Assembly: GCF_900188485.1 (NCBI RefSeq)
Contig: NZ_FZPH01000025.1
Span: 1-64,000 of the forward strand
DNA from: Asanoa hainanensis
Lineage (GTDB): Bacteria; Actinomycetota; Actinomycetes; Mycobacteriales; Micromonosporaceae
Reading direction: 5' to 3'
DNA length: 64,000 nt
Shown: one piece after another, positions 5,772-47,366 of the stretch
How positions within the stretch are numbered: the first letter of the stretch is position 1
Layout: each line of letters opens with the position of its first letter
Notes under the pieces: model-generated
Seen by the model: the letters and a program-made list of their open reading frames with translations, nothing else
Told to the model about the DNA's origin: nothing
Database searches by the model: none
Translations under genes and position numbers: made by a program

Positions 5772-6842
5772 TCACGCGGTCTCCAGGTCGAACAGGGTGG
5801 CCTGCGCGATGCAGCCGCCGAGCCGGTCACGGTGGTGCTGATCCCATGGGCCGGTCGCCGCGTGCGCCGGGCAGTGGCGATCCGGATCGCCGTCCTGGAT
5901 GAGCACACGCACGCCGCAGATCGGGCACGGCACCCAGGTGACCCGAAACGGGCTGGCCGGACCGGCCTTAGCGATGATCTGCGCCATGGTCCGGTTGTCC
6001 TGGAACGGCATCCCGGTCGCCTGCTCGACGGCCAGGATCCGCTGGGCGGTGCCCGGGTTCGCGCGGGCCGAGATCAGCAAGTCGCGCTCGCCGGCGAGCA
6101 CGCACATCCGGCAGCTGAGCCTGGACATGCCCAGGTTCTTGTAAGCCGGGTGGTACGGGACTCCAGCCGCCCGAATGCCGGCCCAGACCTGGTCGGTACT
6201 GAGCTCGTGGATGGGCAGCCAGTCGTAGACCTTGCGGGTGTGCAGAGTCGACGCCCGGGGATTGAAAGACCACACCGGACGGCTGGCGCGGCGGGGCGAC
6301 TCGGCGGCGCGGAAACCGAAGGTCTGTACCACCACCATGGGGCGGCCGGTTACGCCGAGTTGGGCTCCTTGCGCCCGGATGAACCGTTCCGATGGGGCGG
6401 TCTTGTGCTCGCGGGTGCAGAACCGGAACTGCAGCCGAGGGAACCCACGGGGGGAGCCGTCGATGCGCCGTCTGGCGGCGATGTCGTCGATGAGGTCCGG
6501 GCCGTCGCGGCGGGTGACGATGAACGGCAGCCCGTACCGGGCGGCTTGCTCGGCGGCGAGCTCGCAGGTGCCAGCCCACTCGACGCCGTCGTGCGGATCG
6601 TCACCCAGGCCGTTGTGCTGCACCCAGATCCGGCGCTCGGTGATCAGCCTGTCCAGGAGCCCGGCCTCCCGCAGCCGGTCGGCGGCCGCCCGGACCATTT
6701 CTTGCGAGTCCTTGCCGCCCGAGGAATTCAGCAGCCAGAGATCCACCTCGGCGGGATTGCCACCCGGCCCGAACGGGAACACGAAACCCGCCAGCGGCTG
6801 CGGCTTGGCAGCCGGCTTGCCGGCTCTGTTGGTGGTGGACAC
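5772..6842 (-). CDS. PAPS-reductase-like PP-loop ATPase
   Basis: This 356-residue protein carries the PP-loop SSGGKDS (residues 40-46) of the PAPS reductase / N-type ATP pyrophosphatase superfamily. It has a conserved RFCTREHK segment, an SCRMC cysteine pair and a C-terminal CPIC...HCPAH zinc-ribbon-like end. Enzymes of this fold activate a substrate with ATP and often transfer sulfur; examples are sulfate assimilation, tRNA thiolation and the DndC subunit of DNA phosphorothioation. No sulfate-assimilation partners are nearby. Its neighbours are DNA modification genes, which favours a nucleic-acid target. The GTG at 6842 is chosen because GGAGG lies 8 nt upstream; longer extensions run into promoter element E1 (6948-6961). 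The exact substrate cannot be told from sequence. Confidence 0.75.
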   Translation of the reverse strand: MSTTNRAGKPAAKPQPLAGFVFPFGPGGNPAEVDLWLLNSSGGKDSQEMVRAAADRLREAGLLDRLITERRIWVQHNGLGDDPHDGVEWAGTCELAAEQAARYGLPFIVTRRDGPDLIDDIAARRRIDGSPRGFPRLQFRFCTREHKTAPSERFIRAQGAQLGVTGRPMVVVQTFGFRAAESPRRASRPVWSFNPRASTLHTRKVYDWLPIHELSTDQVWAGIRAAGVPYHPAYKNLGMSRLSCRMCVLAGERDLLISARANPGTAQRILAVEQATGMPFQDNRTMAQIIAKAGPASPFRVTWVPCPICGVRVLIQDGDPDRHCPAHAATGPWDQHHRDRLGGCIAQATLFDLETA

Positions 6843-6947
6843 TGGCGAACCTCCGCTGTCATCGCGATCGGGGAGAGGGGCCGCCTCGCGCCCATTTGGG
6901 GGACGCTCCTTGACGACTTCTGGTGACACCCGGGAGACCCCAAGTTG

Positions 6948-6961
6948 CCTATAATGATACC
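6948..6961 (-). promoter_or_regulatory. Shared element E1
   Basis: On the minus strand this reads GGTATCATTATAGG. It lies 106 bp before the GTG of the PP-loop gene and is followed by the leader block CCAGAAGTC (6915-6923). TATCAT fits a TANNNT -10 hexamer. It is one of ten copies of the same element in the island. Confidence 0.75.
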
Positions 6962-7124
6962 CTTTCCGAAGGATTCGCGCCAGATCCACAATGTTTTGAG
7001 CTGCAGAAATATGCGCCTGTGTGGGCCGCCGCCAGTCGCCTCACCCGGGGCGATCGGCGTTACCGGCACCGCGGAAGGACCGGGTGGTCTGCTAAGCGGA
7101 GTGCCTCGTGCCCACATCGGGTGG

Positions 7125-8155: not shown

Positions 8156-8169
8156 CCTATAATGATACC
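8156..8169 (-). promoter_or_regulatory. Shared element E2
   Basis: GGTATCATTATAGG on the minus strand, 74 bp before the ATG at 8082. A leader block related to CCAGAAGTCC occurs at 8118-8127 (TCAGAAGACC). Confidence 0.75.
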
Positions 8170-8429: not shown

Positions 8430-8443
8430 GGTATCATTATAGG
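8430..8443 (+). promoter_or_regulatory. Shared element E3
   Basis: GGTATCATTATAGG on the plus strand, 115 bp before the GTG of the ParB-like gene. TCCACAGTAGAC lies upstream at 8402-8413. A TAGACT-N17-TATCAT arrangement could be the -35 and -10 of the promoter. The same upstream block is found at E6, and in a closer-spaced form at E4, E5, E8 and E9. Confidence 0.75.
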
Positions 8444-8557: not shown

Positions 8558-10093
8558 GTGACTGACCTCGCCGAGGACATCGTCACCACGAGCGCGGCCG
8601 AGGAGGCGACGGGACGACGGCCGCACCTGGTCGAAGTCGACCCGGGCACCCTGGTACTCCGCGCGAACTACTCGCGCGTGAATGCGAAGAAGTCGCTCGA
8701 CCCGGACTTCCTCGCTTCGGTCAAGGAACACGGCGTACTCCAAGCGATCACGGCCTATGAGGACGGCGACGAACTGGTCGTCCTCATGGGGGAGCGCCGA
8801 ACCCTCGCCGCGATCGACGGCGGCCGCGAGACGGTGCCGGTCATGGTCGTCCCGCGGCCCGGGACCGGCGTACAAACCGTCGTTCGTCAGGTCGACGAGA
8901 ACGCTCGCCGGGCTGGCCTGACCGCCGGCGACCGCGTCAAGGCCACCGAGCAGCTCGCGGCCTTCGGCCTGGCTGCGGGAGACATCGCCAAGCAACTCAG
9001 GACACCCAAGAAGGACGTGGAGCAAGCGCTGCAGGTAGCACGGCACGCGGCAGCGTCCAAGATTGTCGCGCGGTACAGCGCAGTCACCCTCGACGTCGCG
9101 GCCGCCATCTCCGAACTCGACCCCAGGCAGGACCGCGACGCGATCAAGCAGATCAGCGTGGCGGCAGCAAAGGGCAAGAATGTCGAGTACGAGATCCGCC
9201 AGGCGCAAAAGAACCGCCAGCTCCGGGATGAGACCGAGAAGGCGCTGGCCGCGCTAGCCCAGGCCGGTGTGACGGTCATCGACGCGCCGGCGGACACCCA
9301 TGGCGACAAGCGGGTGCTGAGCAAGTGGGCCTCGCCGGACGGCAACGGGCTCAGCGAGAAGACCCACTGCGACTGCCCCGGCCATGCGGCCTACCTCGTC
9401 AACGACTACTGGCGCATCAACGTCGTCTACGTCTGCACTGACCCGAAGGCCAACAAGCACCGCAAGTACGCCTACTCGTGGCTCAGCGGATCCACGAGCC
9501 CCGAGAAGCAGCGCGAGGAGCGGCGCGAGGTCATCGCCAACAACAAGGCCTGGGCCATCGCGACCGAGGTCCGCCAGGACTTCGTCAAGGAGCTGTGCCG
9601 GCGGAAGACCCCGCCGCAAGGCACCGTGATGTTCCTCGCCCAGGCGCTGCTCGACGACGAGGGCCACTGGCTCCGTGAGGCGATGGAGAAGGGCGACGCA
9701 CACGCGCTGTCGTGGCTCGGTATCAAAGCCCCCACGTACGGGCGCAGCTCCGACCTCTCGAAGCTGCTCGCCGGCGCCAACGACGCACGGGCGCTGATGC
9801 TGATGCTGACCGTCGTGCTCGGCGCGCACGAGAAGGGCAGCGAGTTCGGCACTTGGCGCAGCCCGCGGGCGTACACCGTTCGCTACCTGAGGTTCCTCGA
9901 GACGCAGGGATACGTCCTGACCGATGTTGAGCGCATCCTCGTCAAGCGGGCCGAACCCAAGAAGGTCAGGCGGCCCAGGAATCCCGTCGAGCCACAGCAG
10001 ACTGACGCCACCTTGGGCACAGACGAACCGGACCAGCCCGAGGCCGACAACGCTCCCCGGGCCGCAGCCGAACCCGACCAGGCTCACCAGTAG
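8558..10093 (+). CDS. ParB/Spo0J-family DNA-binding protein
   Basis: This 511-residue protein starts at GTG with GGAAGGGA upstream. Residues about 23-110 form a ParB N-terminal domain with the MGERR box at 77-81 (ParB/Srx CTPase fold). A KorB-like HTH follows at about 120-160 (GLAAGDIAKQLRTPKKDVEQAL), then a long C-terminal part of unknown fold with an HCDCPGH cysteine cluster near residue 270. ParB proteins bind centromere sites and work with a ParA ATPase, but no parA is present in the window. The gene is driven by E3 and lies upstream of the replication origin. It could be the plasmid partition protein working with an unlinked ParA, or a transcriptional regulator of the island. Confidence 0.8.
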   Translation: MTDLAEDIVTTSAAEEATGRRPHLVEVDPGTLVLRANYSRVNAKKSLDPDFLASVKEHGVLQAITAYEDGDELVVLMGERRTLAAIDGGRETVPVMVVPRPGTGVQTVVRQVDENARRAGLTAGDRVKATEQLAAFGLAAGDIAKQLRTPKKDVEQALQVARHAAASKIVARYSAVTLDVAAAISELDPRQDRDAIKQISVAAAKGKNVEYEIRQAQKNRQLRDETEKALAALAQAGVTVIDAPADTHGDKRVLSKWASPDGNGLSEKTHCDCPGHAAYLVNDYWRINVVYVCTDPKANKHRKYAYSWLSGSTSPEKQREERREVIANNKAWAIATEVRQDFVKELCRRKTPPQGTVMFLAQALLDDEGHWLREAMEKGDAHALSWLGIKAPTYGRSSDLSKLLAGANDARALMLMLTVVLGAHEKGSEFGTWRSPRAYTVRYLRFLETQGYVLTDVERILVKRAEPKKVRRPRNPVEPQQTDATLGTDEPDQPEADNAPRAAAEPDQAHQ

Positions 10094-10791: not shown

Positions 10792-11264
10792 GGTCGGCGC
10801 GAAATGCGCACTGGTCGGCAAGCTATGCGTCGCCTCAAGCACATGACCAGGTCAGCGCGGTCGGCAACAAATGCGTGCACAGCTGTCAGCACACATCGTT
10901 TTCCACAGCCTGCCCCCGTATGGTCGGCGAGCTATGCGGGGACAAGCCCGCTCCTGGGTCGTGTGCCCGTCGTCTCCTCCTTCCTCGCGGAACCTAGGTC
11001 GGCAACCTATGCGTGTGCAACCCGCAACCCAGGAAGGGTTCGAGATTCGGCCGGCCCTCGCCCCGCTAGCGTCACAGCGAAATGCCCCGGTTCGAGGTCG
11101 GCAAGATATGCGCGCCAGACGACCTCGAAGCGACGGTCGGCGGGATATGCGTGGACGGCCGCCACGTCATCCACAACCAGCTTGAACGGCTAGCTCAGAT
11201 CTTCAGCGCGGAGGGATGCCGCACGGGCCACCGCGTGCGCGTCTATCGGTCGGCAGGATATGCG
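10792..11264 (+). repeat. Iteron array, 8 x 17 bp
   Basis: Eight direct repeats match GGTCGGCRRSHWATGCG, starting at 10792, 10813, 10859, 10922, 10997, 11096, 11135 and 11248. The flanks GGTCGGC and ATGCG are invariant and only the central five bases vary. All lie in the same orientation, pointing to repA. Arrays like this are binding sites for RepA-type initiators and control copy number. The last copy lies 87 bp before the chosen repA start. Confidence 0.9.
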
Positions 11265-11350
11265 TACCGCCTGCGAAGCTCAGGAAGCTGAGGCGGCGAC
11301 ACGCCGTGCTGCGACTTGGGTGTGTCTGTCGGGCCTGGAACGCTGTTCCC

Positions 11351-12256
11351 GTGCCCAGGCAGAAGATCACCGACCTTGAAAGGCTGCGTGCGGCCGCCGA
11401 GGTGTGGGACGACGACGCGCCCGACATCGGCTATCTGGCGCAGCTGCTGACCCAGACCAACCTGCCCTACAAAGACCCGGGCGACGTCGCTGTATGGAGC
11501 CGGCACAACGGCGACGTGCACCTGCTCGTCGAGCCGGGACGACGTGTCGCCGCTGACGGCACCTACCAGCCGATCTACCCGTACGGCATCATGCCACGGC
11601 TGCTGCTGATCTGGATGTCCAGCCAGGCGGTCAAGACCCGCTCCCCGACGCTGGTCCTGGGCGCGTCGCTCAGCGAGTTCATGCGCGACATCGGACTCAA
11701 GCCAACGGGTGGCAAGTCCGGTTCGATCACCCGGCTACGCGACCAGATGGAACGCCTCCTCAAGGCGCGGTTGACACTCGAAGTCCGCCAAGGCACGCAG
11801 CGCGACCGGGCCGTGCAGATCTCGGTCGCCCTGAAATGGGACCTGTTCTGGGGCCGCGGCGATCGGCAGGACGCGCTGCTGCCTTCCACGATCCAACTCT
11901 CGGCGGACTTCTTCAACGAGATCGTCGCGCACCCCGTCCCGTTGAATATGGGCGCGCTCGCCGCGCTGCGCGGCTCACCGATGCGCCTGGACATCTACGC
12001 CTGGCTGACCTGGCGGATGTCCTACCTGCGCCGCCCCACCCTGATTCCATGGGACGCCCTCATGGTCCAGTTCGGGTCAAACCTTGCCGACACCAAACAG
12101 GGCCGACAGCAGTTCCGCCGCGACTTCAGCAACCACCTGCGCGAGGTGGTGCTCGTCTACCGCGACGCCAACGTCGAGGCGACCGACACCGGACTAGCGC
12201 TGCGACCAAGCCGCACCCACATCCCGTTCCGGGGCATGCGTTCCGTCGACGGATAG
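11351..12256 (+). CDS. repA: Plasmid replication initiator RepA
   Basis: The protein matches the plasmid-encoded RepA family (RepA_C). Its core YGIMPRLLLIWMSSQAVKT and the LGASLSEFMRDIGL segment (about residues 80-115) are typical, followed by a winged-helix-like region with QLSADFFNEI and LPLNMGALAAL-type motifs. It binds the adjacent iterons to open the origin and recruit host replisome proteins. The GTG at 11351 gives 301 residues. The frame is open further upstream to 11216, but that extension would translate the last iteron and is Arg-rich. The start has no clear ribosome binding site, so it is uncertain. RepA may repress itself through the nearby iteron. Confidence 0.85.
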   Translation: MPRQKITDLERLRAAAEVWDDDAPDIGYLAQLLTQTNLPYKDPGDVAVWSRHNGDVHLLVEPGRRVAADGTYQPIYPYGIMPRLLLIWMSSQAVKTRSPTLVLGASLSEFMRDIGLKPTGGKSGSITRLRDQMERLLKARLTLEVRQGTQRDRAVQISVALKWDLFWGRGDRQDALLPSTIQLSADFFNEIVAHPVPLNMGALAALRGSPMRLDIYAWLTWRMSYLRRPTLIPWDALMVQFGSNLADTKQGRQQFRRDFSNHLREVVLVYRDANVEATDTGLALRPSRTHIPFRGMRSVDG

Positions 12257-12362: not shown

Positions 12363-13592
12363 TTACTGGCCGAACAGCAGGAGTTGATCCGGGTTCGGTC
12401 GCGACCGGTTGGCGCGGCGCAGGAGCGCGGGAGCGGGAAGAGCTGGCTCGGCGGTGTGTCGACCGTTGGCGCGGTCGCGTGCGCAGGCGCGGACGGCGTC
12501 CAGGGCCTCCTCGCGCCAGTGCAGGGCGTAGGTGAAGCAGTTGCGGCAGTCCGTCGGGCGCCGGGCGCCGATGACCGGGTCGGGCCGGCTGAGGTGGTTG
12601 CAGCCGGGCAGCATCAGGTGTTCGTCGCGGGCGGACTTGGACCATGCCTGGCTGTCCGCGCTGTCGAGTAGGTGTCCCGCGATCCGCAACGCGTTGATCG
12701 ACACCCCGAAGCCGTGCATGCGCATGCCCAGGCCGAGTTCGGTGAGGGTGCCCAGCACGCGGGCCACGCCTTTTTGGGAGCCGCGTCGGCAGATGCTGCC
12801 GACGCCGGCCCGTCGGCCGGTGAGGTCGACGCCGGCGCGCTGGTACATCTCGACGTGCTCGACGTATTCCCACGGCCACCAGCCCTGCAGCGTCGGCAGC
12901 CAGGCGATCATCGGGAACTCTTCGGCGAGGTAGAGGTAGGACTCCACGGTGAGCTCCTGGTGCTCGCGCACCGTCTTCCCGGTCCGCTTCAACACGGCGG
13001 GTTCGCACGGCCAGTCCTGCACACCGACGAAGTCGGGCATCAGATCTCGGGACGAGTGACCGACCGCCTCGGCGAAGCGGACCCACATCGCGCCGTAGTC
13101 GGCGGGCCACAGGTACCAGGGGTGGTCGCGGCGGCCGCGAGTGTTGAGCATCAGGGCCGCGTAGGCGCCCGAGTCGCCGGCCCAGGGCGTCCCGAACGTC
13201 TGCACGGGCCAGTCGTCGCCCTGCTGCTCGTACCGGCTCACGTAACGGGCCAGGGTGGTCGCGGAGATGAACAGCGGCACGGGGGAGCGGCGCAGGTGGT
13301 GAGGGTGCCCGACGCCGAGGTAGAAGGTCATCCGGCGAGCGGGGTCGGGGTGGAACTCGCTGCGGGTGTAGGGGGTGACCGGGCCCCACTGGGTGTGCCA
13401 GCGGTCCGGGCCGAGGCCGTACCGGGCGACGTGCGCGTCCCAGCGGGCGCGGCGCTGCTCGACGGTCGGCGGCGGCCACTCGGTCACGCCCCGGCGGCGC
13501 ATCAACTCGAGGAGCCGCGCGGCGCGCTGCGGGTCAACACCGTACCCGGCGATGGTGCGGCGCCGGATCGCGTCCAGGTCCTTGACGATCAC
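12363..13592 (-). CDS. DpdA/TGT-like base transglycosylase (queuine tRNA-ribosyltransferase-like)
   Basis: This 409-residue protein belongs to the family related to tRNA-guanine transglycosylase and DpdA, the enzymes that exchange guanine for a 7-deazaguanine base in tRNA or DNA. The core starts at MTFYLGVGHPHHL (residue 88). The first catalytic-type Asp is D140 in AGDSGAY. The second candidate is D193 in VQDWPCEP. GVGSICRRG (263-271), MHGFGV (292-297) and SADSQAW (311-317) follow family positions. A metal site is likely formed by C331/H333 and CRNC (349-352). The GTG start overlaps the TGA of the upstream DNA methylase (GTGA). DNA rather than tRNA is the likelier target because the operon also holds a Mom-like enzyme and a DNA methylase. 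No preQ0 synthesis genes are visible here, so the base would come from the host. Confidence 0.8.
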   Translation of the reverse strand: MIVKDLDAIRRRTIAGYGVDPQRAARLLELMRRRGVTEWPPPTVEQRRARWDAHVARYGLGPDRWHTQWGPVTPYTRSEFHPDPARRMTFYLGVGHPHHLRRSPVPLFISATTLARYVSRYEQQGDDWPVQTFGTPWAGDSGAYAALMLNTRGRRDHPWYLWPADYGAMWVRFAEAVGHSSRDLMPDFVGVQDWPCEPAVLKRTGKTVREHQELTVESYLYLAEEFPMIAWLPTLQGWWPWEYVEHVEMYQRAGVDLTGRRAGVGSICRRGSQKGVARVLGTLTELGLGMRMHGFGVSINALRIAGHLLDSADSQAWSKSARDEHLMLPGCNHLSRPDPVIGARRPTDCRNCFTYALHWREEALDAVRACARDRANGRHTAEPALPAPALLRRANRSRPNPDQLLLFGQ

Positions 13593-14716
13593 GCCGGCAC
13601 CTCGTGAGCGTCGAAGAGCGCGAGCTGCTCGACCGCCGGGCGAAGGGCCGGGATGATCTCGGCGAGGACCCGGCCCATCGCGAAGCGCAAGGCCTCGGGA
13701 TTGAGGTCGCCGCCCAGAAAGCGGCGCCCTTCGGACAGGCAGGTGACCAGCGTCGTGCCGGATCCGAGGAAGGGGTCGCAGACCAGGTCGCCACGGCGGG
13801 TGGTGGATCGGACCAGGCGGGACACCAGGGCCGGGTGCAGGGCGTTGTCGTAGCGCAGCAGGCCGGGTCGGCGCTCGTCCGGGATGTCGGTCCAGACGTC
13901 GACGGCGTAGATCTGGCCGGTCCGGCCGCGCGGCATCTCGGTCGGTCGGTCGAAGACCCGTTGCGGCGAGTCGAGCGGGCCGCGGGTCATCAGGGTGACC
14001 CGGTGGTGGGCGTGGACGTAGCGGCGGGTGCTGTAGAGCCCGAACGGCCGTTTGACGGCGATGGAGTTGACGTAGGTCAGGCCGGCGATGTCCTCGGCGG
14101 CGACCTGGACTCGGGCCGCCTGCTGACCGCCGGTGATCACGGCGAGGTAGCCGCCGGGGCGTAGCGCGGCGCCGGCGGCGGCGATCCATTCGGCGGTCCA
14201 GTCGGCGTACGCGGCCGGGTCGACGTCGATGTAGCCGCCGAGCACCTGGGAGTGGTCGCGGCCGTAGGTGCGCCGGTACGCCGAGCGGTGCTCGCCGCGA
14301 CCGAGGGCGTACGGCGGGTCCGCGACGATCAGGTCGATCGGTTCGTCGGCCTGGGCCAGCACGGTGGCCGCGGCGCCGAGCACGAGCTCGGCCTGACCCG
14401 GGTCGCCGGGCAGCCAGAGCAGCAGCGCCCGGCGCGGCCGGGCGGTGGTGCCCTCGATCAGCCAGGCCGCGCTCTGGTCGTCGTCCTGACGGGCCCGGCC
14501 CTGGCGGCGCAGGGACTGGAGGGCTGAGCGGATCCGCCGCTTGTACTGCTCCTGCCCGTCCTGGATGATGCGGCGTCCGTCGGCCCGGTCGGCCAGCCCC
14601 GCCCGCTCGGCGAGCTGGTACAGCTCCGGGAGGGTGTAGCAGCCGGACTCCAACGTGCGCAGCAGGTCCGCCGCCGTGCGCAGCTCGCGGACCCCGGTGC
14701 CTGGCTGCCTGGTCAC
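13589..14716 (-). CDS. N4/N6-type DNA methyltransferase
   Basis: This 375-residue protein carries DPPY at 133-136 (motif IV) and a later DPFLGSGTT (near residue 322; motif I). This order is that of beta-class amino-methylases that modify adenine-N6 or cytosine-N4. Residues 12-90 form a winged-helix-like N-terminal extension (SGCYTLPELYQLAERAGL). The GTG at 14716 overlaps the mom stop (GTGA) and its own stop overlaps the next start, so it sits in the middle of a coupled three-gene operon. No restriction endonuclease is adjacent, so it is an orphan methylase, consistent with self-protection. Target sequence is unknown. Confidence 0.85.
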   Translation of the reverse strand: MTRQPGTGVRELRTAADLLRTLESGCYTLPELYQLAERAGLADRADGRRIIQDGQEQYKRRIRSALQSLRRQGRARQDDDQSAAWLIEGTTARPRRALLLWLPGDPGQAELVLGAAATVLAQADEPIDLIVADPPYALGRGEHRSAYRRTYGRDHSQVLGGYIDVDPAAYADWTAEWIAAAGAALRPGGYLAVITGGQQAARVQVAAEDIAGLTYVNSIAVKRPFGLYSTRRYVHAHHRVTLMTRGPLDSPQRVFDRPTEMPRGRTGQIYAVDVWTDIPDERRPGLLRYDNALHPALVSRLVRSTTRRGDLVCDPFLGSGTTLVTCLSEGRRFLGGDLNPEALRFAMGRVLAEIIPALRPAVEQLALFDAHEVPA

Positions 14717-15567
14717 AGCGGCACGCCCATCGCGGCAAACAGGTCCGGCGAGGGCTTGGGGTACCGGGACGGGTCGCGGTGGGCCCGCACCGCCCGGCCG
14801 TTGCGGTCGCGCTTGTAGACCTTGACGTCCTTACGCAGCGGCATGGCGTAGCGGTGCTTGCCGGGCGTGCGGCGGCGGGTCACCTTCACGTCGAGCAGGG
14901 CCTGCCGCAGCCATTCGTGCGGCTTTTCTCCGGCCCGCATCGGCCGCGCCCCGAACGACACCAGCCGCCGCTCCGCGGCCGCATGTCCGCGCTCCTGCGC
15001 GCGGATCTTTTGCATCGTGCGCTCGTCGAGGCACGTGCCGTCGGGCAACCAGATGGTGGTCGTGGTCTTGCTGGTGCCGAGGTAGATGCAGTTGAACGCC
15101 TGGTAGATGATGCCGACGTGCCCCCAGGCCGGGTCGGCGAAGGTGATCACGGCGTGCAGGCCCTCGTCGAGCAGCAGGGCCCGACACTGCCCGAGCGTCC
15201 AGGTCTCGGCGTTGCCCTCGGTCGGGCCCAGCACCAGCCGTTGCAGCACCAGCGACTGCGTGTAGGGCTCCAGGTCGGGCAGCGGGTTGGTCAGCACCTT
15301 GTCCTGCGCTGGGTTTCCGTACACCGCAACGCCGATCAGCTCGCCGTGGCGGAACAGGCCGAACTGGTGGACGGCGGCCGGGTACGAGCGAAGGTAGTGG
15401 CGACTGGTGACGAACGGCTTTGCGACGGCCTCGGCGATCGGCTGGACCTCGTAGCCGCGCGGGCTGAACCGCTCGGAGGGGTCGGCGTACGACCAGGCCG
15501 GCATCGGCTGTCCTGGCTGGGATGGGTCGCGTTCGGGCCAGCGCTGGCACCAGCGCGACGCGGTCAT
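14713..15567 (-). CDS. mom: Mom-like adenine modification enzyme
   Basis: This 284-residue protein of the Mom family is GNAT-related; phage Mu Mom converts adenine in DNA to N6-methylcarbamoyl adenine and so blocks restriction enzymes. Diagnostic segments are SRHYLRSYPAAVHQFGLF (about 56-73), GVAVYGNP, the NAETWTLGQCRALLLDEG helix (about 119-136) and GHVGIIYQAFNCIYLG (about 150-165). The C-terminus is basic. The ATG at 15567 has no Shine-Dalgarno; it overlaps the TGA of a 32-codon upstream frame (ATGA), so translation is probably coupled. This is reminiscent of Mu, where com precedes mom and controls its translation. It is the first large gene of the E4 operon. Family assignment is confident; chemistry on this plasmid is inferred. 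Confidence 0.82.
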   Translation of the reverse strand: MTASRWCQRWPERDPSQPGQPMPAWSYADPSERFSPRGYEVQPIAEAVAKPFVTSRHYLRSYPAAVHQFGLFRHGELIGVAVYGNPAQDKVLTNPLPDLEPYTQSLVLQRLVLGPTEGNAETWTLGQCRALLLDEGLHAVITFADPAWGHVGIIYQAFNCIYLGTSKTTTTIWLPDGTCLDERTMQKIRAQERGHAAAERRLVSFGARPMRAGEKPHEWLRQALLDVKVTRRRTPGKHRYAMPLRKDVKVYKRDRNGRAVRAHRDPSRYPKPSPDLFAAMGVPL

Positions 15568-15662
15568 CGGGCCACGCCCCGGGTGTGGGCCGCGGATGGG
15601 ATCATGTCCGGCTCCTCGATGAGGGCTTGGAGGCCGGCGGCCCGCGCGGGATCTGTGATCAC
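15564..15662 (-). CDS. Possible leader peptide coupled to mom
   Basis: A 32-residue frame (VITDPARAAGLQALIEEP...) starts at GTG and ends in a TGA that overlaps the mom ATG. Its start lies 74 bp from element E4, within the 56-74 bp spacing seen for the first genes after E2 and E5-E9, whereas mom itself is 169 bp away. That supports it as the true first cistron. It has no clear ribosome binding site and, unlike Mu Com, no cysteine cluster. It may simply be a short regulatory uORF. Confidence 0.4.
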   Translation of the reverse strand: MITDPARAAGLQALIEEPDMIPSAAHTRGVAR

Positions 15663-15735
15663 GCACGCGGTCAGCCGGGGCCTGAGGTGGTGGTCGGGCT
15701 TCTGGTCTGGAGTCCGGGTGCCGACCCTCGCTCCG

Positions 15736-15749
15736 CCTATAATGATACC
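15736..15749 (-). promoter_or_regulatory. Shared element E4
   Basis: GGTATCATTATAGG on the minus strand, heading the mom-methylase-transglycosylase operon. TCCACA begins 16 bp upstream. The leader downstream has GGTCGGCACCCGG and CCAGAAGCCC (15696-15705), and its GGTCGG can pair with the CCGACC that follows. Confidence 0.75.
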
Positions 15750-15802
15750 TTATATCTATTGTGGACGGTAGATGAGACGTGAATTTGCCTGGGAAAACAG
15801 CT

Positions 15803-15854: not shown

Positions 15855-16580
15855 TCAGCTATCGCGCTGCGCGGGCGGGTCGCCGTCGTGAGGGGTGGAG
15901 GACGCCGCCGCGTCTGCGGGGTCCTCGGCGGCTAGGTCGTAGCCGCCGAACGGGGTCCGGCCCGGCACGTGCCGGGTGGCCAGGCCGCTGCGGCGGGTGC
16001 GGATCGGACCGCCGTCGGTGAGCCATTTCGTCGGGTAGTGAGTGGCGACGCGGTCCACCCAGGCGCCGTGGCGCTTGCGGTCCTCGGGCACGCGGGGAAC
16101 CACCGGCAGGTCGCGCCAGCCCGGCCACGCGTGGTCGCAGGCGTCCTCGACGGCCGCGTTCTCCTGGTTGCGCGGCTCGCCCTCCCAGTCGCACCCGCGG
16201 CACGCCCCGCGATACAGCAGGTCGCCGACGCAGCAGCAGTTGTCGAGGCAGTCGCAGCGCAGATCCGCGCTCAGCACGGTGGGTTGGCAGCGCGCGGTCG
16301 GCGTGTCGGGGCAGGTGATGTGCACCTCCCAGGCATGCGAGCGGCGGATCGAGCTCCAGTTGCCGTAGCGGGCGCGCCACGCCTCGACCTCGGCCGTACG
16401 GGCCACCAGGCCACGTGAAGGCGAGTCGTAGAGACTCGGCGCCGCCGTCTGAGGCCCGGGCAGCGGGGCTACCTCGGCGTCCAGGTCATCGAAGAGGGAG
16501 AGTTGCCCGGGAAGAACCTTGGTCATCGGGTTACCTGCCAGTCCTGTGACGTGCCGACCGGTGCGCGGATTCGGGTTCAT
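15855..16580 (-). CDS. DUF6349-like protein, Cys-rich
   Basis: This 241-residue protein has an N-terminal PGQLSLFDD tract. Its conserved core (RRSHAWEVHITCPDTP, then RCDCLDNCCCVGDLLYRG, ACRGCDWEG and DACDHAWPGWRDLP) and GLATRHVPGRTPFGGYD near the end match what I recall of the actinobacterial DUF6349 family, whose function is unknown. At least ten cysteines suggest bound zinc or an iron-sulfur centre. It is transcribed alone from E5 (68 bp upstream) and ends at a hairpin. The ATG at 16580 has GGAGAGAG 8 nt upstream; an alternative ATG lies 18 codons in (MTKVLPGQ). Confidence 0.7.
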   Translation of the reverse strand: MNPNPRTGRHVTGLAGNPMTKVLPGQLSLFDDLDAEVAPLPGPQTAAPSLYDSPSRGLVARTAEVEAWRARYGNWSSIRRSHAWEVHITCPDTPTARCQPTVLSADLRCDCLDNCCCVGDLLYRGACRGCDWEGEPRNQENAAVEDACDHAWPGWRDLPVVPRVPEDRKRHGAWVDRVATHYPTKWLTDGGPIRTRRSGLATRHVPGRTPFGGYDLAAEDPADAAASSTPHDGDPPAQRDS

Positions 16581-17053
16581 GCCGGCTCTCTCCGAGCAGG
16601 TCCAGCCGACGGGGTGCGCTGGCCTGGCCGGCCCGCCCGAAGTCCATTGTATAATGATACCTTGTGTCTACTGTGGACGGAAGCGTTGAGAGGATCTGAG
16701 TAGCGGAAGTGGTCACCCCCGCCCGAGGGTCGTTGGCTCCGGCTCGGGAGGGGTGGACAGGTGCGCTCGCGGGTTACCGGCGTGCGGCGAGGGCGTATGG
16801 GTGCAACCCCAGACCCGGTGGTTGCGGGGATCGGGCCGTGGCCTGTGCTTCTCGGCCGGCGATGACCAACTCGGCGGACGGCGAGCCGGGTGGTGGGGGT
16901 GTGCAGCAGGACCGGGCGCCGGTCTCGGCGAACGGTGCGGCAGCGGCCAGGCGCGCCGCCGAGACCGACAGTGGCGGCGCGTCCGGCTTGGTCAGCCAGC
17001 TCGCGTCCTGCGCACCAGGGAGAAGGTGAACGGCCGCTGCCCGCGCGGCGTGC
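16581..17053. other. Intergenic with E5 and a long-loop inverted repeat
   Basis: This contains E5 and an inverted repeat GGTCTCGGCG / CGCCGAGACC (16921-16930 with 16957-16966) downstream of the minus-strand membrane gene, possibly its terminator. The Arg/Gly-rich open frames are not convincing. Confidence 0.5.
16648..16661 (-). promoter_or_regulatory. Shared element E5
   Basis: GGTATCATTATACA on the minus strand, 68 bp before the DUF6349 ATG. TCCACAGTAGAC begins 16 bp upstream, the same distance as at E4, E8 and E9. Confidence 0.75.
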
Positions 17054-18313: not shown

Positions 18314-20071
18314 TCAGGCGGCCAGCGCGTACTCGCGTTCGAGTTGCGCACCGGTCATGCACTCGACGAGCGCGGAGACGATCAGCTCGGCGCAGGCCGC
18401 CACGACGGCGTTGCCGTACAGGCGGACCCGGGCGCGCTGCGTCTTGGCCTCGTTGCGGTAGGAGGGGTGGAACCCCATCAGCTTGCCGATCTCGTAGTCC
18501 AGCAGCATCCGGAAGTAGATGTCGGCGAGGTCGGGCAGCTCGGTGAGGACCTCCTGTGGCGGCAGGGCCAGGCCGTACCGGTCGCGGGTGGTCAGCGCTC
18601 CGGACGGTCCGGCGGCGGGGATCGCCGACTCGGCGGCGCCGTAGTAGGGCACCAGGAGGGCGTCCTGCCAGGTCACCAGCGACTGGTGGCCCGCGGTGGT
18701 GACCGTGCGAGCCGGTTCGTCGACGGGTGTGCACATCTCGGCGCCGCCGGTGTTGTTGCGCATCAGGAACGCGGGCGGCAGAACCAGGCCGTGGTGGTTG
18801 CCCGAGGCGGTGACCGTCCCGGCCGGCTGCGTCACCGGGTACGACGCGGTCTTTGACCCGCCTCCCCGCAACGGCGTGATGAACGGCATGGCGACGCCGG
18901 TCTCCGCGCGGGTGGTCTGGGTGCGCATCGGGCCGGTCGCCGGTGCGGCCGTCTTGTCCGGGCGGCCCTCGACCGGCACCAGCAGCGGCGGCAGGTCGAC
19001 GCTGTCGGACTCGCGGGTGGTCCGGGGGAGTGTCGGGGTGGTCAGCGGTACGGCGCCCTGGTCGCCGTGCCCGCGCCGGCTGGCGCCGGTCGGCACGAGT
19101 AGCGGACCCCAGTGGCGGACCTTTCCGGCCTCGATGCGTGAAGTGGTGGCGGGTTGCAGAGCCTTCATCCCTCGGGCCTCGCGGTCGCCGATGCGCACGC
19201 CCGGGTTGGACAGGTCGATCGCGCTCAGCGCGGGCACGACCTCGGGGAAGACCTCCCGGCCCCGGCAGCGCAGTTGCGGGCACTGGTAGATGTACTGGCG
19301 GCCGTAGCTGCCCATGTCCACGCCCGGCTTCTTGAACACCTGCACCGCGTCGACGATCTGGACGCAGTTGTCGCACCAGGCTTTGGGCCGCAGCCACTTG
19401 TCCCAGTCGGGGTGGCGGCCCAGCGAGCGGTGCCAGAAGCCGACGAACAGCCGGTTGCGGGACTGTCCGGCCCACGGCGCGCGGACCGGGCGGGCGTGCA
19501 TCGCGTTGAACGCGATGAGCCGCACGTAGTAGCCCAGGTTGCGCAGTTCGAGGATCCAGCGGTCCCACTCGGCCCACAGACGGCACTGGACGACGTTCTC
19601 CATCATGCCGATGAGCACCGGCTCGCGTGGGTTGCGTTCGATCATGGCGCGCAGGTAGCGCGGGATCTCGTTCATCAGCAGCCGCGACCGCTTGTACTGC
19701 TTGATCCGGCGCTGCAACTGCGGGTCGTCCTGTTTGGCACCGGGCATCTCGAACAGCGCGGTCTGCTCGGCGTTGGCCTTGTCGAAGTCACGCTTGATGC
19801 CCCTCGAATCGGTCCAGCCAGGGCAAGCGGGGGAGCTGGTGAACAGGTCGACCCGCGGCATGGTCGTCATGTCGAGCTTGGTGACGTCCTGCTGGTAGTG
19901 CCGAGCGTTGGGGAAGTTCAGCTCGTGCTGTTCACAGGCGTCCGCGTCGTGGTTCGCGGCGTCGGTCGTCTCGATCCACGTGCGGAACCGATCGCCGAAC
20001 CCGTCGCCGATGAAGTGGACGCCGTGGTCGGTGCCACCGAGGCCGGAGAACTCGGAATAGTGGGTGATCAT
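18314..20071 (-). CDS. DNA cytosine-C5 methyltransferase
   Basis: This 585-residue protein shows the C5-methylase motifs in order: motif I FSGLGG (8-13), motif IV SSPACPGW with catalytic Cys83, motif VI MMENVVQ (ENV at 158-160), motif VIII QSRNR (203-207) and a late motif X VRLYGNAV near residue 557. Unusually, the span between VIII and X is about 350 residues and contains repeated LLVP(V/T)-type and TVT(A/T)xGxH-type segments, so the target-recognition region is greatly enlarged. The ATG at 20071 has AAGG upstream and lies 59 bp from E6. No endonuclease partner is adjacent, so it is an orphan methylase for self-protection or regulation. Confidence 0.85.
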   Translation of the reverse strand: MITHYSEFSGLGGTDHGVHFIGDGFGDRFRTWIETTDAANHDADACEQHELNFPNARHYQQDVTKLDMTTMPRVDLFTSSPACPGWTDSRGIKRDFDKANAEQTALFEMPGAKQDDPQLQRRIKQYKRSRLLMNEIPRYLRAMIERNPREPVLIGMMENVVQCRLWAEWDRWILELRNLGYYVRLIAFNAMHARPVRAPWAGQSRNRLFVGFWHRSLGRHPDWDKWLRPKAWCDNCVQIVDAVQVFKKPGVDMGSYGRQYIYQCPQLRCRGREVFPEVVPALSAIDLSNPGVRIGDREARGMKALQPATTSRIEAGKVRHWGPLLVPTGASRRGHGDQGAVPLTTPTLPRTTRESDSVDLPPLLVPVEGRPDKTAAPATGPMRTQTTRAETGVAMPFITPLRGGGSKTASYPVTQPAGTVTASGNHHGLVLPPAFLMRNNTGGAEMCTPVDEPARTVTTAGHQSLVTWQDALLVPYYGAAESAIPAAGPSGALTTRDRYGLALPPQEVLTELPDLADIYFRMLLDYEIGKLMGFHPSYRNEAKTQRARVRLYGNAVVAACAELIVSALVECMTGAQLEREYALAA

Positions 20072-20129
20072 CGCTGCCTTCTGTCGACGGACTTCTGGAA
20101 CGTCGAGGCGGGTGCCGACCCAACCTCTG

Positions 20130-20143
20130 CATATAATGATACC
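20130..20143 (-). promoter_or_regulatory. Shared element E6
   Basis: GGTATCATTATATG on the minus strand, with TCCACAGTAGAC starting about 29 bp upstream (the wide spacing, as at E3). The downstream leader has GGTCGGCACCCG and CCAGAAGTCC (20089-20098). TCGACG and CGTCGA can form a stem that displays the latter in its loop. Confidence 0.75.
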
Positions 20144-20221
20144 CCTTCTAGGTTTCATTCGTCTACTGTGGACGGACTCCCACGGCCCGTGCTTTCGTTG
20201 TTAACCAACCGATAGCGGGCG

Positions 20222-20271: not shown

Positions 20272-21261
20272 TCACCGGACTGCGAGGTCCGGGCCGAACA
20301 GGTCCAACTGCTGCTCCTCGTCGGGGGAGCCATGGGTCGGCTCGGCGCCGTCGGGGGAGGCATGCCGGACGCGCTTCGCGCCGCGGACGCCGGCGCGCAC
20401 GCCGGGGGTGATGCCCAGCGAGCGGCGCAGCGCCTCGTACTCGCCGTAGCCGCCGTCGTCCAGGGCCTTGCTGAAGGCGTCGACGACCGGGATTCCCTCC
20501 GGTGTCACCATGCTCGCGAGGCCGGGGACGTTCTCCATGACGAACGCCCGTGGCCTGATCTCGCAGATCAGCCGGGCGAACTCGAAGACCAACGAGTTGC
20601 GGGGGTCCATGACGTCGCGCGCGCCGGCCATCGAGAAGCCCTGGCACGGCGGCCCGCCGGTGACCAGCGCGACGTCGCCGACGTCCAGGCCGAGCGCGTC
20701 GAGGACCTGCGCGCCGGTCAGGTTCCGCACGTCGGCGACGAAGAACTGCTCGCAGCCGTACGGGTGGGCCGGCGGACGGTTCGTGTCGGCGAGGTAGTCG
20801 TTCGGGTAGCTGCCCGGGTCGTGTGGCCGGCCGTACCCGGAGATCCAGCCGCTTCCGGCCAGCGGGCCACGGTGAACGTATCCCTCGGGAGCGACGAGAT
20901 TGCCGTCGCCGTCGAGCTTGAGGCCCATCGCCTTGGCCAGGTGCCGCTCGAATGCCTCTTCCCGCTCGGGGCCGTCGAAGTGCACCTTTACCCCGGGCAC
21001 GGCGAGGTTGACCATGTAGGTGGTGGCCGCGATGAGGTCCATCTCCACCGCGGCGGCCACGTGGAAGCCAGCCTGGTGCAGGCCGCAGCCGAAACCACCG
21101 GCCCCGGCGAACAACTCGACCGCCACCGGCAGCTCGTAGCGCCGGCGCGGTCGCGGCGGGACGAGCAGGCCCAGCGGGGACCTGGTCCAGCCGGCGACCC
21201 GGTCGCTGCCGGGTGGTAGCGGCGATGACGCGCCCGGCCCTCGGTGGTTGGTCGTGTGCAC
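20272..21261 (-). CDS. DNA cytosine-C5 methyltransferase, short form
   Basis: This 329-residue protein has motif I ELFAGAGGFGCGL (49-61), motif IV TGGPPCQGFS with catalytic Cys206, and motif VI VMENV (ENV 243-245). It then ends after about 84 more residues with a QQLDLFG tail. Motif VIII (QxRxR) and motif X are not seen, so the usual second lobe and recognition domain are lacking. It may need a partner subunit, be inactive, or belong to an atypical short family. The GTG at 21261 has GGAAGGA 8 nt upstream. Its immediate upstream region lacks an E element and is separated from the next gene by a terminator, so it probably has its own promoter. Confidence 0.8.
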   Translation of the reverse strand: MHTTNHRGPGASSPLPPGSDRVAGWTRSPLGLLVPPRPRRRYELPVAVELFAGAGGFGCGLHQAGFHVAAAVEMDLIAATTYMVNLAVPGVKVHFDGPEREEAFERHLAKAMGLKLDGDGNLVAPEGYVHRGPLAGSGWISGYGRPHDPGSYPNDYLADTNRPPAHPYGCEQFFVADVRNLTGAQVLDALGLDVGDVALVTGGPPCQGFSMAGARDVMDPRNSLVFEFARLICEIRPRAFVMENVPGLASMVTPEGIPVVDAFSKALDDGGYGEYEALRRSLGITPGVRAGVRGAKRVRHASPDGAEPTHGSPDEEQQLDLFGPDLAVR

Positions 21262-21425
21262 GATCGGGGTCCTTCCAGTCGTCGAACTCTGGCCCTGACT
21301 CGAGTGGCCTTGGACGCGGCGGTACGGGCCGATGAGGCGGCCGATTCGGTGTGGGCTGCTACGTCGAGTACGAGCCCGGTGCCGGGTCGCGCACGACGCG
21401 TGGGTTCGGTCGGCGGAACGCTGCG

Positions 21426-21461
21426 CGTCCGGCGGCGGCCCTGTCGGCACGCCGCCGGACG
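21426..21461 (-). terminator. Strong GC hairpin terminator
   Basis: CGTCCGGCGGCG and CGCCGCCGGACG form a 12-bp perfect stem with a 12-nt loop. It lies just after the 21475-21927 gene and isolates the cytosine methylase downstream. Confidence 0.7.
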
Positions 21462-21982: not shown

Positions 21983-21996
21983 TCTATAATGATACC
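21983..21996 (-). promoter_or_regulatory. Shared element E7
   Basis: GGTATCATTATAGA on the minus strand, 56 bp before a GTG start. The leader block CCAGAGGTCC is at 21944-21953, and CGG-CCTCT / AGAGG-CCG can fold around TCACC. A small hairpin (ACCCCT / AGGGGT, 21994-22008) overlaps both the element and the stop codon of the upstream methylase. This copy lacks the upstream TCCACA. Confidence 0.7.
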
Positions 21997-24882: not shown

Positions 24883-24896
24883 CCTATAATGATACC
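24883..24896 (-). promoter_or_regulatory. Shared element E8
   Basis: GGTATCATTATAGG on the minus strand with TCCACA 16 bp upstream. The leader carries GGCGGCACCCG and CCGGAAGTCC (24842-24851), able to form a short stem GACCTCC / GGAAGTC. It lies 60 bp before the start at 24823. Confidence 0.75.
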
Positions 24897-26320: not shown

Positions 26321-26334
26321 TCAATAATGATACC
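26321..26334 (-). promoter_or_regulatory. Shared element E9
   Basis: GGTATCATTATTGA on the minus strand with TCCACAATAG starting 16 bp upstream. The leader block CCAGAAGTCC is at 26277-26286. It lies 63 bp before the start at 26258. Confidence 0.75.
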
Positions 26335-29210: not shown

Positions 29211-29224
29211 GGTATCATTATAGG
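29211..29224 (+). promoter_or_regulatory. Shared element E10
   Basis: GGTATCATTATAGG on the plus strand. The nearest gene it faces is mobC, about 600 bp away. The nearest gene start is the minus-strand 29172, for which the element is reversed. The core TATCATTATA is a near-palindrome (8 of 10), so it might work as an operator in either direction. It marks the right end of the island. Confidence 0.6.
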
Positions 29225-29822: not shown

Positions 29823-30269
29823 GTGACGACAACGCTCGGCGACATGGCGCATGGCGACACTCGAGTGCGGGAGGGTCGTGGCCGTGACCGGACCCACCTG
29901 TATCCGGGCCGGCCGCGGCGGATCGCTCCGAGCTTCACCGAACAGGAGATGGCCGACGTCCAGAAGGCGGCGGAAGACGCCGGTCTGACGCCGACCGGGT
30001 TTTTGGCCGAGGCGGGCTTGGCCGCCGCCCGGGGAACCCCGCCCGCGTCGCTCGACCGCGGCCGCGAGGGCCTGGCGCAGCTGCAGGCCGAGTTGTTCGA
30101 CGCGCGTGTCGCCGTCGGTCGGATTGGCACCAACCTCAACCAGGCCGTGGCCGCCCTGAACGCCACCGGGGCGGCCCCGGACTGGTTGATACAAGCCGTC
30201 GCGATGTGCGAGCGCAGGATGCAGGCCCTCGATGAGGTGATCTCGATGGTCGACCGGCGGCTCCAGTGA
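29823..30269 (+). CDS. mobC: MobC-like relaxosome accessory protein
   Basis: This 148-residue protein has a basic N-terminus, then a ribbon-helix-helix-like segment (RRIAPSFTEQEMADVQKAAEDAG) and the MobC signature VGRIGTNLNQAVAALN near residue 100. MobC proteins bind oriT, melt it locally and load the relaxase. The GTG at 29823 has no clear ribosome binding site; ATG at 29844 is an alternative. The end overlaps the relaxase start (GTGA). It probably binds the palindrome at 29722. Confidence 0.8.
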   Translation: MTTTLGDMAHGDTRVREGRGRDRTHLYPGRPRRIAPSFTEQEMADVQKAAEDAGLTPTGFLAEAGLAAARGTPPASLDRGREGLAQLQAELFDARVAVGRIGTNLNQAVAALNATGAAPDWLIQAVAMCERRMQALDEVISMVDRRLQ

Positions 30270-31738
30270 TCCCATCGATCCACAAGCGCGGTACCCGGGT
30301 CGGCGGGCTCATCCGCTACCTGTACGGGCCCGGTCGTCGAGAAGAACACCGCGACCCCCGGTTGGTGGCCGCGTGGGACGGCGCCGGACCGCTGTCCCGC
30401 CTCGAGCCGGTGGCGGGCCCGGGCGGCAAGCTCGATTTCACCCAACTGGTCGATCTGCTCGAGCAGCCTGTCCGGGCGGGCCGCAACCCACCGCAGCGCA
30501 CGGTGTGGCACACCTCCGTGCGTAATCACGCCTCCGACCGGACGCTGAGCGACCAGCAGTGGGCGCACATCGCCAGGGAGATGGTCGCCGGCTCCGGTCT
30601 GGCGCCCCACGGCGACACCCGGGCAGTGCGGTGGATCGCGGTCCGCCACGCCGACGACCACATCCACATCGTCGCCACCCTGGTCCGTCAGGACCGTCGC
30701 ACCGAGTGGGGACGCAACGACCGCTGGCGATGCCAGCGGACCGCCCGGGACCTTGAGGAGCGCTACGGTCTGCACCGGGTCGGGCCCGCCGACCGCACCG
30801 CCGACACCCGCGCCCACCGGGCCGAGGTCAACAAGGCCCGGCGCACCGGTCGCCGCGAACCCGCCCGTAACCGGCTGCGCCGGGAGGTGCGCTTCGCCGC
30901 GGCGGCCGCCGGATCCAGCGCCGAGTTCTTCGACCTGCTTCGGGCGGCGGGCCTGCAGGTCCGCCTGCGGCACAGCAGCACCGATCCCGGACAGGTCACC
31001 GGCTACGCGGTCGCCCTCGATGGGCACACCATCGCCGATGGCACGCCGGTCTGGTACGGCGGCGGCCGGCTGGCGCCCGACCTGACCCTGCCCCAGCTGC
31101 GGACCCGCTGGGACGAGACCTCGACCGGCGAGGCGGCCCCGCCACTGATCGAGCAGGCCGAGGTCTACCGGCAGGCCGCCGAGCAGGTGCGCGCCGCCGC
31201 CGAGGCCATCCGCCAGCGTGCCGCGGGTGGCCAGGGTGCCGCCGGCGCGGACGCGTACGCGGCCGCTGACGCCCTCACCGTCACCGCTCGAATGATGGAA
31301 GGCGACGACCCGCGAGGGCCGCTGCATCGCGCGGCCCGCGTGCTCGACCGAGCCACCCGCGAACCGTACCGGCGTCCGCTGCCGCGGACCCGCCGCGCCG
31401 AGGGCCTGCGGTCCATGTCGCGGCTGATGAAACTGGCCGGACAACTCAGCGACAACGCGGCCGTGTTCGAAGCACTCCGCATGGTCATGCAGATGTCGCT
31501 GCTGGCCGACGCCCTCGCCGACATGCGCGAAAGCCAACAACGCCTGCACCAGGCCCGCGCCGCCCGCGCCGCCGCCGGGCTGCTGCGCACCGCTGGCACC
31601 AGGCAGGGCACGACGTCGCCGGCCGTGGCGGACACGGGGGTAACGCCGCAGCCAACGCCACCGTCAACCCCTCCACCAACCGGCGCCCACGATCGTCGAC
31701 GTCAGGCCCGGTCCACCAACACGGGCCGCGGCAGGTGA
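30266..31738 (+). CDS. Relaxase / mobilization nuclease
   Basis: This 490-residue protein has the relaxase three-His metal motif in RHADDHIHIVATL (residues 127-139), with candidate catalytic tyrosines Y18 or Y20 in LIRYLYGPGR. This is the layout of MOBP-type relaxases of the relaxase/mobilization nuclease domain. It nicks oriT and stays bound to the 5' end during transfer. The C-terminal 200 residues are helical and Ala/Arg-rich, with no helicase or primase motif. The GTG start overlaps the mobC stop. Confidence 0.85.
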   Translation: MIPSIHKRGTRVGGLIRYLYGPGRREEHRDPRLVAAWDGAGPLSRLEPVAGPGGKLDFTQLVDLLEQPVRAGRNPPQRTVWHTSVRNHASDRTLSDQQWAHIAREMVAGSGLAPHGDTRAVRWIAVRHADDHIHIVATLVRQDRRTEWGRNDRWRCQRTARDLEERYGLHRVGPADRTADTRAHRAEVNKARRTGRREPARNRLRREVRFAAAAAGSSAEFFDLLRAAGLQVRLRHSSTDPGQVTGYAVALDGHTIADGTPVWYGGGRLAPDLTLPQLRTRWDETSTGEAAPPLIEQAEVYRQAAEQVRAAAEAIRQRAAGGQGAAGADAYAAADALTVTARMMEGDDPRGPLHRAARVLDRATREPYRRPLPRTRRAEGLRSMSRLMKLAGQLSDNAAVFEALRMVMQMSLLADALADMRESQQRLHQARAARAAAGLLRTAGTRQGTTSPAVADTGVTPQPTPPSTPPPTGAHDRRRQARSTNTGRGR

Positions 31739-46656: not shown

Positions 46657-47366
46657 CGACCACCCCGTTGTCCCTAGCTACGCCGGCAGGAGTGACACCA
46701 ATGACGGCAACGCAAACCTTCCCCACGGCATACGCCACCGCCCGCGCCGTGGCGGCCGGCAACTGGTCACGCCGTTCGTACCTCGCGCCATCGGACCGGT
46801 TCATCCTGGCCGTCGACACGATCTGGGCGGTGGGCTACACCACCGGCTACCGCGCCGGACACCACTGCGTCACCCGGCACGTTCACACATCCGCCCGCGC
46901 GGCTGCCCCGCAAACCCCGGCCGGCGACCCACGCCGTTGCGCCGCCGCACTCGTCGACGCTGCAGCCGAGGTGGCCGAGCGGTGCACCCCGCTCATCGCG
47001 CCCACGCCAGCCGCCATCCTTGCCGCAGCCGAGGCCACCACCGACCCCCATCCGAACCCGGCATTGTCCTCGTGCAGCAGCGTCGTGTGGACACAGGCGC
47101 TGCGTGCCGGCGCTCTTGCGGGCATCGCCACCGCCGCCACCGACATCCTCATTGACTTCAGGATCGGCGTCGGACTCCGCGCCCTGGGCCGGGTCCGCGT
47201 GGCGGACCTGACCGCCGCTGAATGGGCGGCCGCCGTCCTCATCGACGCCAATCGGACCGCCGCGTCCACGCCCTGGATCGCCGGCGCCACCAACCCCCTG
47301 AAGTCCAGTCGGCGAGCCGACCCGACACGGGCGTCGAAGACCACGAGTATGAAGGGCGCTCTGTAA
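46653..47366 (+). CDS. Hypothetical transfer-region protein
   Basis: This 237-residue protein is Ala/Thr-rich with a helical core (RFILAVDTIWAVGYTTGYRAGHH; GALAGIATAATDILIDFRIGVG). A few cysteines and histidines sit near residues 72-78 (HHCVTRHVH). Its TAA overlaps the ATG of the giant gene (TAATG) and its own ATG overlaps the hydrolase stop, so it is part of the same coupled run. No family recognised. Confidence 0.6.
   Translation: MTTTPLSLATPAGVTPMTATQTFPTAYATARAVAAGNWSRRSYLAPSDRFILAVDTIWAVGYTTGYRAGHHCVTRHVHTSARAAAPQTPAGDPRRCAAALVDAAAEVAERCTPLIAPTPAAILAAAEATTDPHPNPALSSCSSVVWTQALRAGALAGIATAATDILIDFRIGVGLRALGRVRVADLTAAEWAAAVLIDANRTAASTPWIAGATNPLKSSRRADPTRASKTTSMKGAL

Follow-up and report, generated by a model that had tools for sequence, protein, structure and literature searches.

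We analysed a window of 64,000 bases from Asanoa hainanensis (bases 1-64000 of an 87,103-base contig), in which genes for a Mom-like enzyme, a DNA methylase and a DpdA-like guanine transglycosylase form a single operon on the minus strand. The window also carries RepA_C, ParB-like, MobA/VirD2-type relaxase and DnaG-type primase genes and, judged from its genes alone, the contig is a plasmid. The original prediction had placed three enzyme families that alter DNA bases here, in one operon with overlapping stops and starts, and this description held: the three reading frames are present where it put them, each protein matches the named Pfam family well over its cut-off, and both junctions (Mom-like/methylase and methylase/DpdA-like) are 4-nucleotide GTGA overlaps. 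The operon comprises the following features:

12363..13592, minus strand: DpdA-like guanine transglycosylase (PF23859, E 1.2e-39; alignments; structure model against 7ui4 and TGT)
13589..14716, minus strand: DNA methylase (PF01555, E 2.2e-26; PADLOC type II methyltransferase models)
14713..15567, minus strand: Mom family protein (PF25680, E 1.1e-29; phrog_1384, Mom-like; 8bv8)
15564..15605, minus strand: possible 13-codon leader frame, whose ATGA overlaps the mom ATG (translation)

The open frame of the Mom-like gene runs from a GTG at 15666 to 14713, and its start is probably the ATG at 15567 rather than this GTG; the mom gene of phage Mu also overlaps a small upstream gene. The protein scored 104 bits with the PF25680 profile (cut-off 27.1), and the solved "methylcarbamoylase mom" 8bv8, which we take to be phage Mu Mom, was matched by sequence at E 1e-5 with a single query and at E 4.1e-11 with a 12-sequence profile. 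H57, Y58, R110, D145 and Y155 (numbered from ATG 15567) are invariant in a 12-sequence alignment that includes the window, in a region that aligns with 8bv8, and we assume from the work on Mu that this His-Tyr pair and the Arg, Asp and Tyr are the candidate catalytic residues. The protein is of the same family as Mu Mom by sequence, with the candidate catalytic residues kept, whereas its gene lies on a plasmid and is coupled to a methylase and to DpdA. A natural broken copy, with mom in two frames, is found in Salinispora pacifica (locus L006, 4030-4895).

The methylase frame (GTG 14716 to 13589, 375 residues; 93.6 bits with PF01555, cut-off 26.7) has DPPY at residue 133 followed by FLGSGTT (FxGxGT) at 316, presumably the order of the beta class, and the DPPY motif suggests that it is probably an N6-adenine enzyme. 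While the families had been rightly named, the claim that they alter bases in different ways may hold only in part: if the methylase acts on N6 of adenine, it would address the same atom as Mom, and the different ways may thus be fewer than three.

The DpdA-like frame, from GTG 13592 to the stop at 12363, encodes 409 residues (136 bits with PF23859, cut-off 27), including D140, D193, Q236, H293, D313 and C331/C349/C352. D140, D313 and H293 are invariant in a 50-sequence DpdA alignment (45 viral loci plus the window, L004, L005, L006 and L007), with motifs common to the DpdA of phage CAjan, and we take the aligned positions to have the roles of the catalytic aspartates and the conserved histidine. 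Searching PDB sequences with DpdA alone or as a profile gave nothing up to E 1, so that a fold comparison was needed; the structure prediction proposed with the original prediction for the 12363-13592 product gave the TGT/DpdA barrel fold when compared with 7ui4 and TGT. Relative to the sister plasmid, 38 of the 60 codon differences in dpdA are silent, which, together with the kept catalytic-type residues and the coupling, argues that dpdA is not decaying freely; the protein looks intact. It shares fold and catalytic-type residues with the solved DNA preQ0 insertase DpdA 7ui4 and with phage DpdA (CAjan and others, as far as described in the available text of PMC6884629), but has a ~85-residue N-terminal extension before the family match, and no gene for preQ0 synthesis or import was found in the host genome, plasmid included. 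In genome G111, DpdA lies in two pieces several kb apart (L048, 10261-18242), another natural broken copy. The three operon proteins have PHROG matches of like meaning (phrog_1384, phrog_67 and phrog_1279); neither the Mom-like nor the DpdA-like protein was matched in NCBIfam or PADLOC, and the window had no Rfam match at gathering scores.

The order mom-methylase-dpdA is kept in related loci of Micromonospora zingiberis (L005), S. pacifica (L006) and genome G119 (L049), with GTGA and ATGA overlaps and with identities to the window of 62-63% for DpdA and 73-74% for the methylase; the coupling is therefore conserved and not a product of chance. Asanoa siamensis (L004) has the same order, the order on viral contig L098 is DpdA-methylase-Mom, its methylase belonging to the same family (578 bits), and Streptomycetaceae plasmids have DpdA-Mom, the reverse order, with GTGA overlaps in AP028456 and CP107915. 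Among 300 Micromonosporaceae genomes, DpdA was found in 29, Mom in 29 and both in 14, against 2.8 expected (p = 7e-9, treating species as independent, which they are not). Eleven of the 14 genomes carry the pair close together, with 68 to 1800 bases between the genes and both on one strand of a single contig, and two of the 11 (G000 and G018) have near-identical plasmids; the distance is 6,773 in G253, and the genes are on different contigs in G030 and G125. Mom precedes DpdA in nine of the 11 close pairs, DpdA coming first in G010 and G044. At least nine plasmid records are common to those listed for DpdA (40 of 55) and for Mom (60 of 94), the genes not being neighbours in three of the nine. 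Altogether, the Mom-DpdA pair is recurrent, and the operon is conserved and coupled.

No QueC, VUT/YhhQ, QueT or TGT match was found in the genome of the host (listed as 99.97% complete, plasmid included), which leaves the DpdA step without a known substrate here; two GTP cyclohydrolase I genes are present. The same searches found QueC in 12, VUT in 9, QueT in 1 and TGT in 14 of 14 control genomes, the QueT control being thin. Strong QueC (best E under 1e-20) occurs in seven of the 29 DpdA-bearing genomes, VUT in two others and neither in 20; for the 14 genomes with both Mom and DpdA, the counts are three (G018, G111, G253), two (G119, G197) and nine. A search for TGT that covered 24 of the 29 DpdA-bearing genomes and three DpdA-free genomes of the window's genus (27 in all) gave weak matches in four, two of them over the cut-off. 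Weak TGT matches lie ~5 kb from a strong QueC in the DpdA-bearing genomes G052, G064, G111 and G145, perhaps as a separate 7-deazapurine or Dpd cluster.

The closest tested precedent for a DpdA without a host pathway is mycobacteriophage Orion. In the available text of Hutinet et al. 2019 (PMC6884629), Orion, with DpdA only and a host lacking the pathway, has no 7-deazaguanine in its DNA, and Salmonella phage 7-11, with DpdA alone and a host that has the pathway, contains a little dADG. This precedent, together with the missing QueC, VUT, QueT and TGT matches, makes it quite unlikely that all three modifications occur together on the plasmid here with environmental 7-deazaguanine entering via an unknown importer, as a literal reading of the original prediction would have it, even though DpdA looks intact and some importers of queuosine precursors are still unidentified according to the portion available of PMC11130926. 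Alternatively, DpdA could act on tRNA or be idle, with only Mom and the methylase mattering. The Orion precedent would agree with this, as would the lack of a known substrate supply and of a tRNA TGT match in the host, and PHROG names the DpdA-like family queuine tRNA-ribosyltransferase; however, the protein matches the Pfam DpdA model, TGT models gave no match up to E 1, and the kept catalytic-type residues, the coupling and the largely silent codon differences also argue otherwise, so that we consider this very unlikely.

In a quick maximum-likelihood tree of DpdA (119 rows), the window's protein falls in a 14-row clade (SH-aLRT 99) in which 10 rows have Mom no further than 5 kb away and none has a VUT/Que gene. 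The viral DpdA loci examined were the best 80 of 491, of which 64 passed a redundancy filter before the 45 used in the 50-sequence alignment were taken; from the tree, L001-L003, L011-L044, L047, L064, L090 (CAjan), L095 and L103 were left out as duplicates or not needed, as were DpdA matches under 180 residues. Across the full tree, 17 rows have VUT nearby and three have Que genes, with both Mom and VUT in two rows; Mom adjacency is scattered and requires 10 changes, so that the Mom neighbour was gained or lost repeatedly. An avoidance between Mom and precursor genes near DpdA, conspicuous in the clade that holds the window, did not reach significance over the 119 rows (2/22 versus 18/97, p 0.36). 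A VUT (YhhQ-type) importer adjoins or overlaps DpdA in 14 viral contigs among the best 80 of 491 and on two plasmids (e.g., L009, L089, L115, L124, L129, L140, L143, L153, L163 and L164), possibly a salvage-only 7-deazaguanine cassette; in this pair of phages and plasmids, the same DpdA family also stands beside one partner, but the partner is an importer and not Mom.

A further candidate partner is encoded 5 kb beyond dpdA, across repA and parB, and thus outside the operon:

5772..6989, minus strand: PAPS-reductase-like PP-loop protein (PF01507, E 1.1e-7; alignment; start uncertain)

It has SGGKDS at residue 90 and conserved C293/C296 (longest-frame numbering). Relatives are found no more than about 2 kb from Mom in G047, G061, G169, G249 and G253; in L007 one adjoins Mom and DpdA, and in L094/L095 one adjoins DpdA; PAPS-like and Mom genes occur together in nine of the 300 genomes versus 1.4 expected, some of the PAPS-like matches being weak. 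The available text of PMC10434257 describes a Psychrobacter phage that also has PAPS-reductase, ParB-domain and Mom genes. A structure model of the PAPS-like protein had a mean pLDDT of 57.4 and resembled mostly PP-loop enzymes, the best fold match being at E 4.3e-3; it was not used as evidence.

These associations bear on a different hypothesis, in which the Mom and DpdA of this clade jointly make one hypermodified base, or the base that DpdA inserts is guanine-like but not preQ0, the PAPS-reductase-like enzyme perhaps preparing it. It would explain the absence of accompanying 7-deazaguanine genes, and fits with the partners of DpdA in the window's clade, the spread of Mom adjacency over the tree, the PAPS-like genes near Mom or DpdA, the 20 of 29 DpdA-bearing genomes without strong QueC or VUT, and the occasional fusion of GNAT with TGT in BREX-related capture (BRC) loci reported in the available part of PMC12839542. 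On the other hand, Mom and VUT/Que genes are not significantly separated when the whole tree is considered, no single-frame Mom-DpdA fusion was found in 68 viral Mom loci (most of them without DpdA nearby), five of the 14 genomes with both genes have strong QueC or VUT, and the conserved residues look TGT-like, so that a standard base is possible. We regard it as unlikely that Mom-linked DpdA would form a 7-deazaguanine-independent branch which, with Mom and perhaps the PAPS-like protein, places a different or further-modified guanine-type base in DNA.

The operon is preceded by a repeated element. The 12-mer GGTATCATTATA (up to one mismatch) has 10 copies in the window versus 0.02 expected. 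By eye, every copy shares the strand of a gene or gene unit and coincides with or precedes its 5' end; in four copies the element is longer, CCGTCCACA being placed ten bases before GGTATCATTATA. The copies are:

15738..15768, minus strand: promoter/operator-like element CCGTCCACA-n10-GGTATCATTATA before the Mom operon
16650..16661, minus strand: GGTATCATTATA box before the DUF6349 gene
20132..20143, minus strand: GGTATCATTATA box before the C5-methylase-like gene, inside the longest frame (true start probably downstream)
21985..21996, minus strand: GGTATCATTATA box before gene 21475, inside the longest frame
24885..24896, minus strand: GGTATCATTATA box before gene 23549
26323..26334, minus strand: GGTATCATTATA box with 1 mismatch before gene 25296, inside the longest frame
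6950..6961, minus strand: GGTATCATTATA box before the PAPS-reductase-like gene, inside the longest frame
8158..8169, minus strand: GGTATCATTATA box near the 5' end of frames 7765/7163
8430..8441, plus strand: GGTATCATTATA box before parB
29211..29222, plus strand: GGTATCATTATA box upstream of the NikA-like/relaxase unit

With up to one mismatch, the box recurs in related loci L005, L006, L008, L049, L064 and L083 and once in contig bases 64001-84000, and was not found in L007 or L048. It resembles a promoter or operator dedicated to this plasmid family and would work as one. Four of the 10 box regions, folded as single-stranded DNA, were no better than shuffles (z 0.72, -0.93, 0.79 and -0.76), arguing against a single-strand (Frpo-like) promoter, and the search for standard sigma-70 promoters gave one versus 0.7 expected in 12-30 kb.

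The genes around the operon include:

8558..10093, plus strand: ParB-like protein (phrog_6218, E 3.7e-46)
11216..12256, plus strand: RepA plasmid replication protein (PF04796, E 8.6e-28)
15855..16580, minus strand: DUF6349 protein (PF19876, E 1.2e-54)
18314..20158, minus strand: C5-cytosine-methylase-like protein (phrog_116, E 2.6e-33; TIGR00675 weak, below cut-off)
20272..21450, minus strand: second C5-cytosine methylase (PF00145, E 3.7e-27)
30266..31738, plus strand: MobA/VirD2-type relaxase (PF03432, E 5.4e-8)

In L005, L006, L048 and L049, the gene immediately preceding mom encodes a relative of the ParB-like protein (35% identity). A 4060-residue frame (47222-59404, plus strand) has matches to an Eco57I-type methylase (below cut-off), to SNF2/ResIII helicase and to UvrD helicase, and its product may be an anti-restriction or a restriction protein. 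This giant methylase-helicase gene could fit with modifications that label self DNA on behalf of a Dpd- or BRC-like defence system instead of shielding the plasmid from restriction. A subset of BRC loci has GNAT and TGT genes, occasionally fused and predicted to mark DNA (available text of PMC12839542), and the present operon likewise pairs an acyltransferase-fold gene with a TGT-type gene; moreover, a gene for DUF4007, a BRC component, lies a few kb from DpdA-Mom on two Streptomyces plasmids. However, the GNAT is not called Mom in the parts of that source available, PglZ, DUF6079, DUF4007 and HerA were unmatched among 35 scanned window proteins, and the 40-kb stretches around the two Streptomyces pairs name only DUF4007 of these, many genes there being annotated as "hypothetical" or "ATP-binding protein". 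DUF328 (DpdC) had no match among the same 35 proteins. We give self-marking little probability.

We propose instead, with about even confidence, that the operon is an anti-restriction cassette through which the plasmid modifies its own DNA. Translational coupling would keep synthesis of the three products in step, and the operon shares its promoter-like box with partition, transfer, PAPS-reductase-like and other methylase genes. Adenines would receive a small carbamoylmethyl-type group from Mom, and the methylase would methylate adenines (or cytosines) at its own site, both of which are possible in this host. DpdA, as an intact guanine transglycosylase, would swap guanine for a 7-deazaguanine-type base only if such a base is available, whether scavenged or in another host of the plasmid, since the present host lacks any known route for its synthesis or import. 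Plasmid DNA modified in this way would resist restriction on reaching the next host. With Mom, orphan-looking methylases and a mobilisable plasmid, an anti-restriction role is the most economical reading, and this part of the original prediction stands; the multiply modified plasmid that it also proposed goes beyond the evidence, given the missing precursor gene matches and the absence of 7-deazaguanine in Orion. Methylases and anti-defence genes are known from plasmid leading regions (available text of PMC11541004), where methylases are likewise grouped on one strand of a mobile plasmid, but oriT was not located here and folding of box regions gave no sign of single-strand promoters. Several points weigh against the cassette: DpdA is missing from the stretches of up to 6 kb on each side of 62 of the 68 viral Mom loci (six have it), and 97 of the 119 DpdA rows have no Mom within 5 kb (22 do), many contigs ending sooner, so that each enzyme can generally do without the other; the box may be an operator without a tie to transfer; and the giant methylase-helicase might itself be a restriction enzyme or its partner.

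Mom and DpdA are each already known, and the available text of PMC7824862 describes Mom and deazaguanine systems of jumbo phages separately. In the open-licence literature, most subscription papers being outside this scope, their pairing was found only as the unnamed GNAT-TGT pair of BREX-related loci. That a transglycosylase looks intact in a host lacking its known substrate raises a sharp and cheap question, namely which base is inserted, and the near-identical operon in a sister genome with a QueC-type gene offers a natural comparison. If the hypothesis of a joint or different base is true, the Mom-linked DpdA branch would constitute a two-enzyme hypermodification not yet described.

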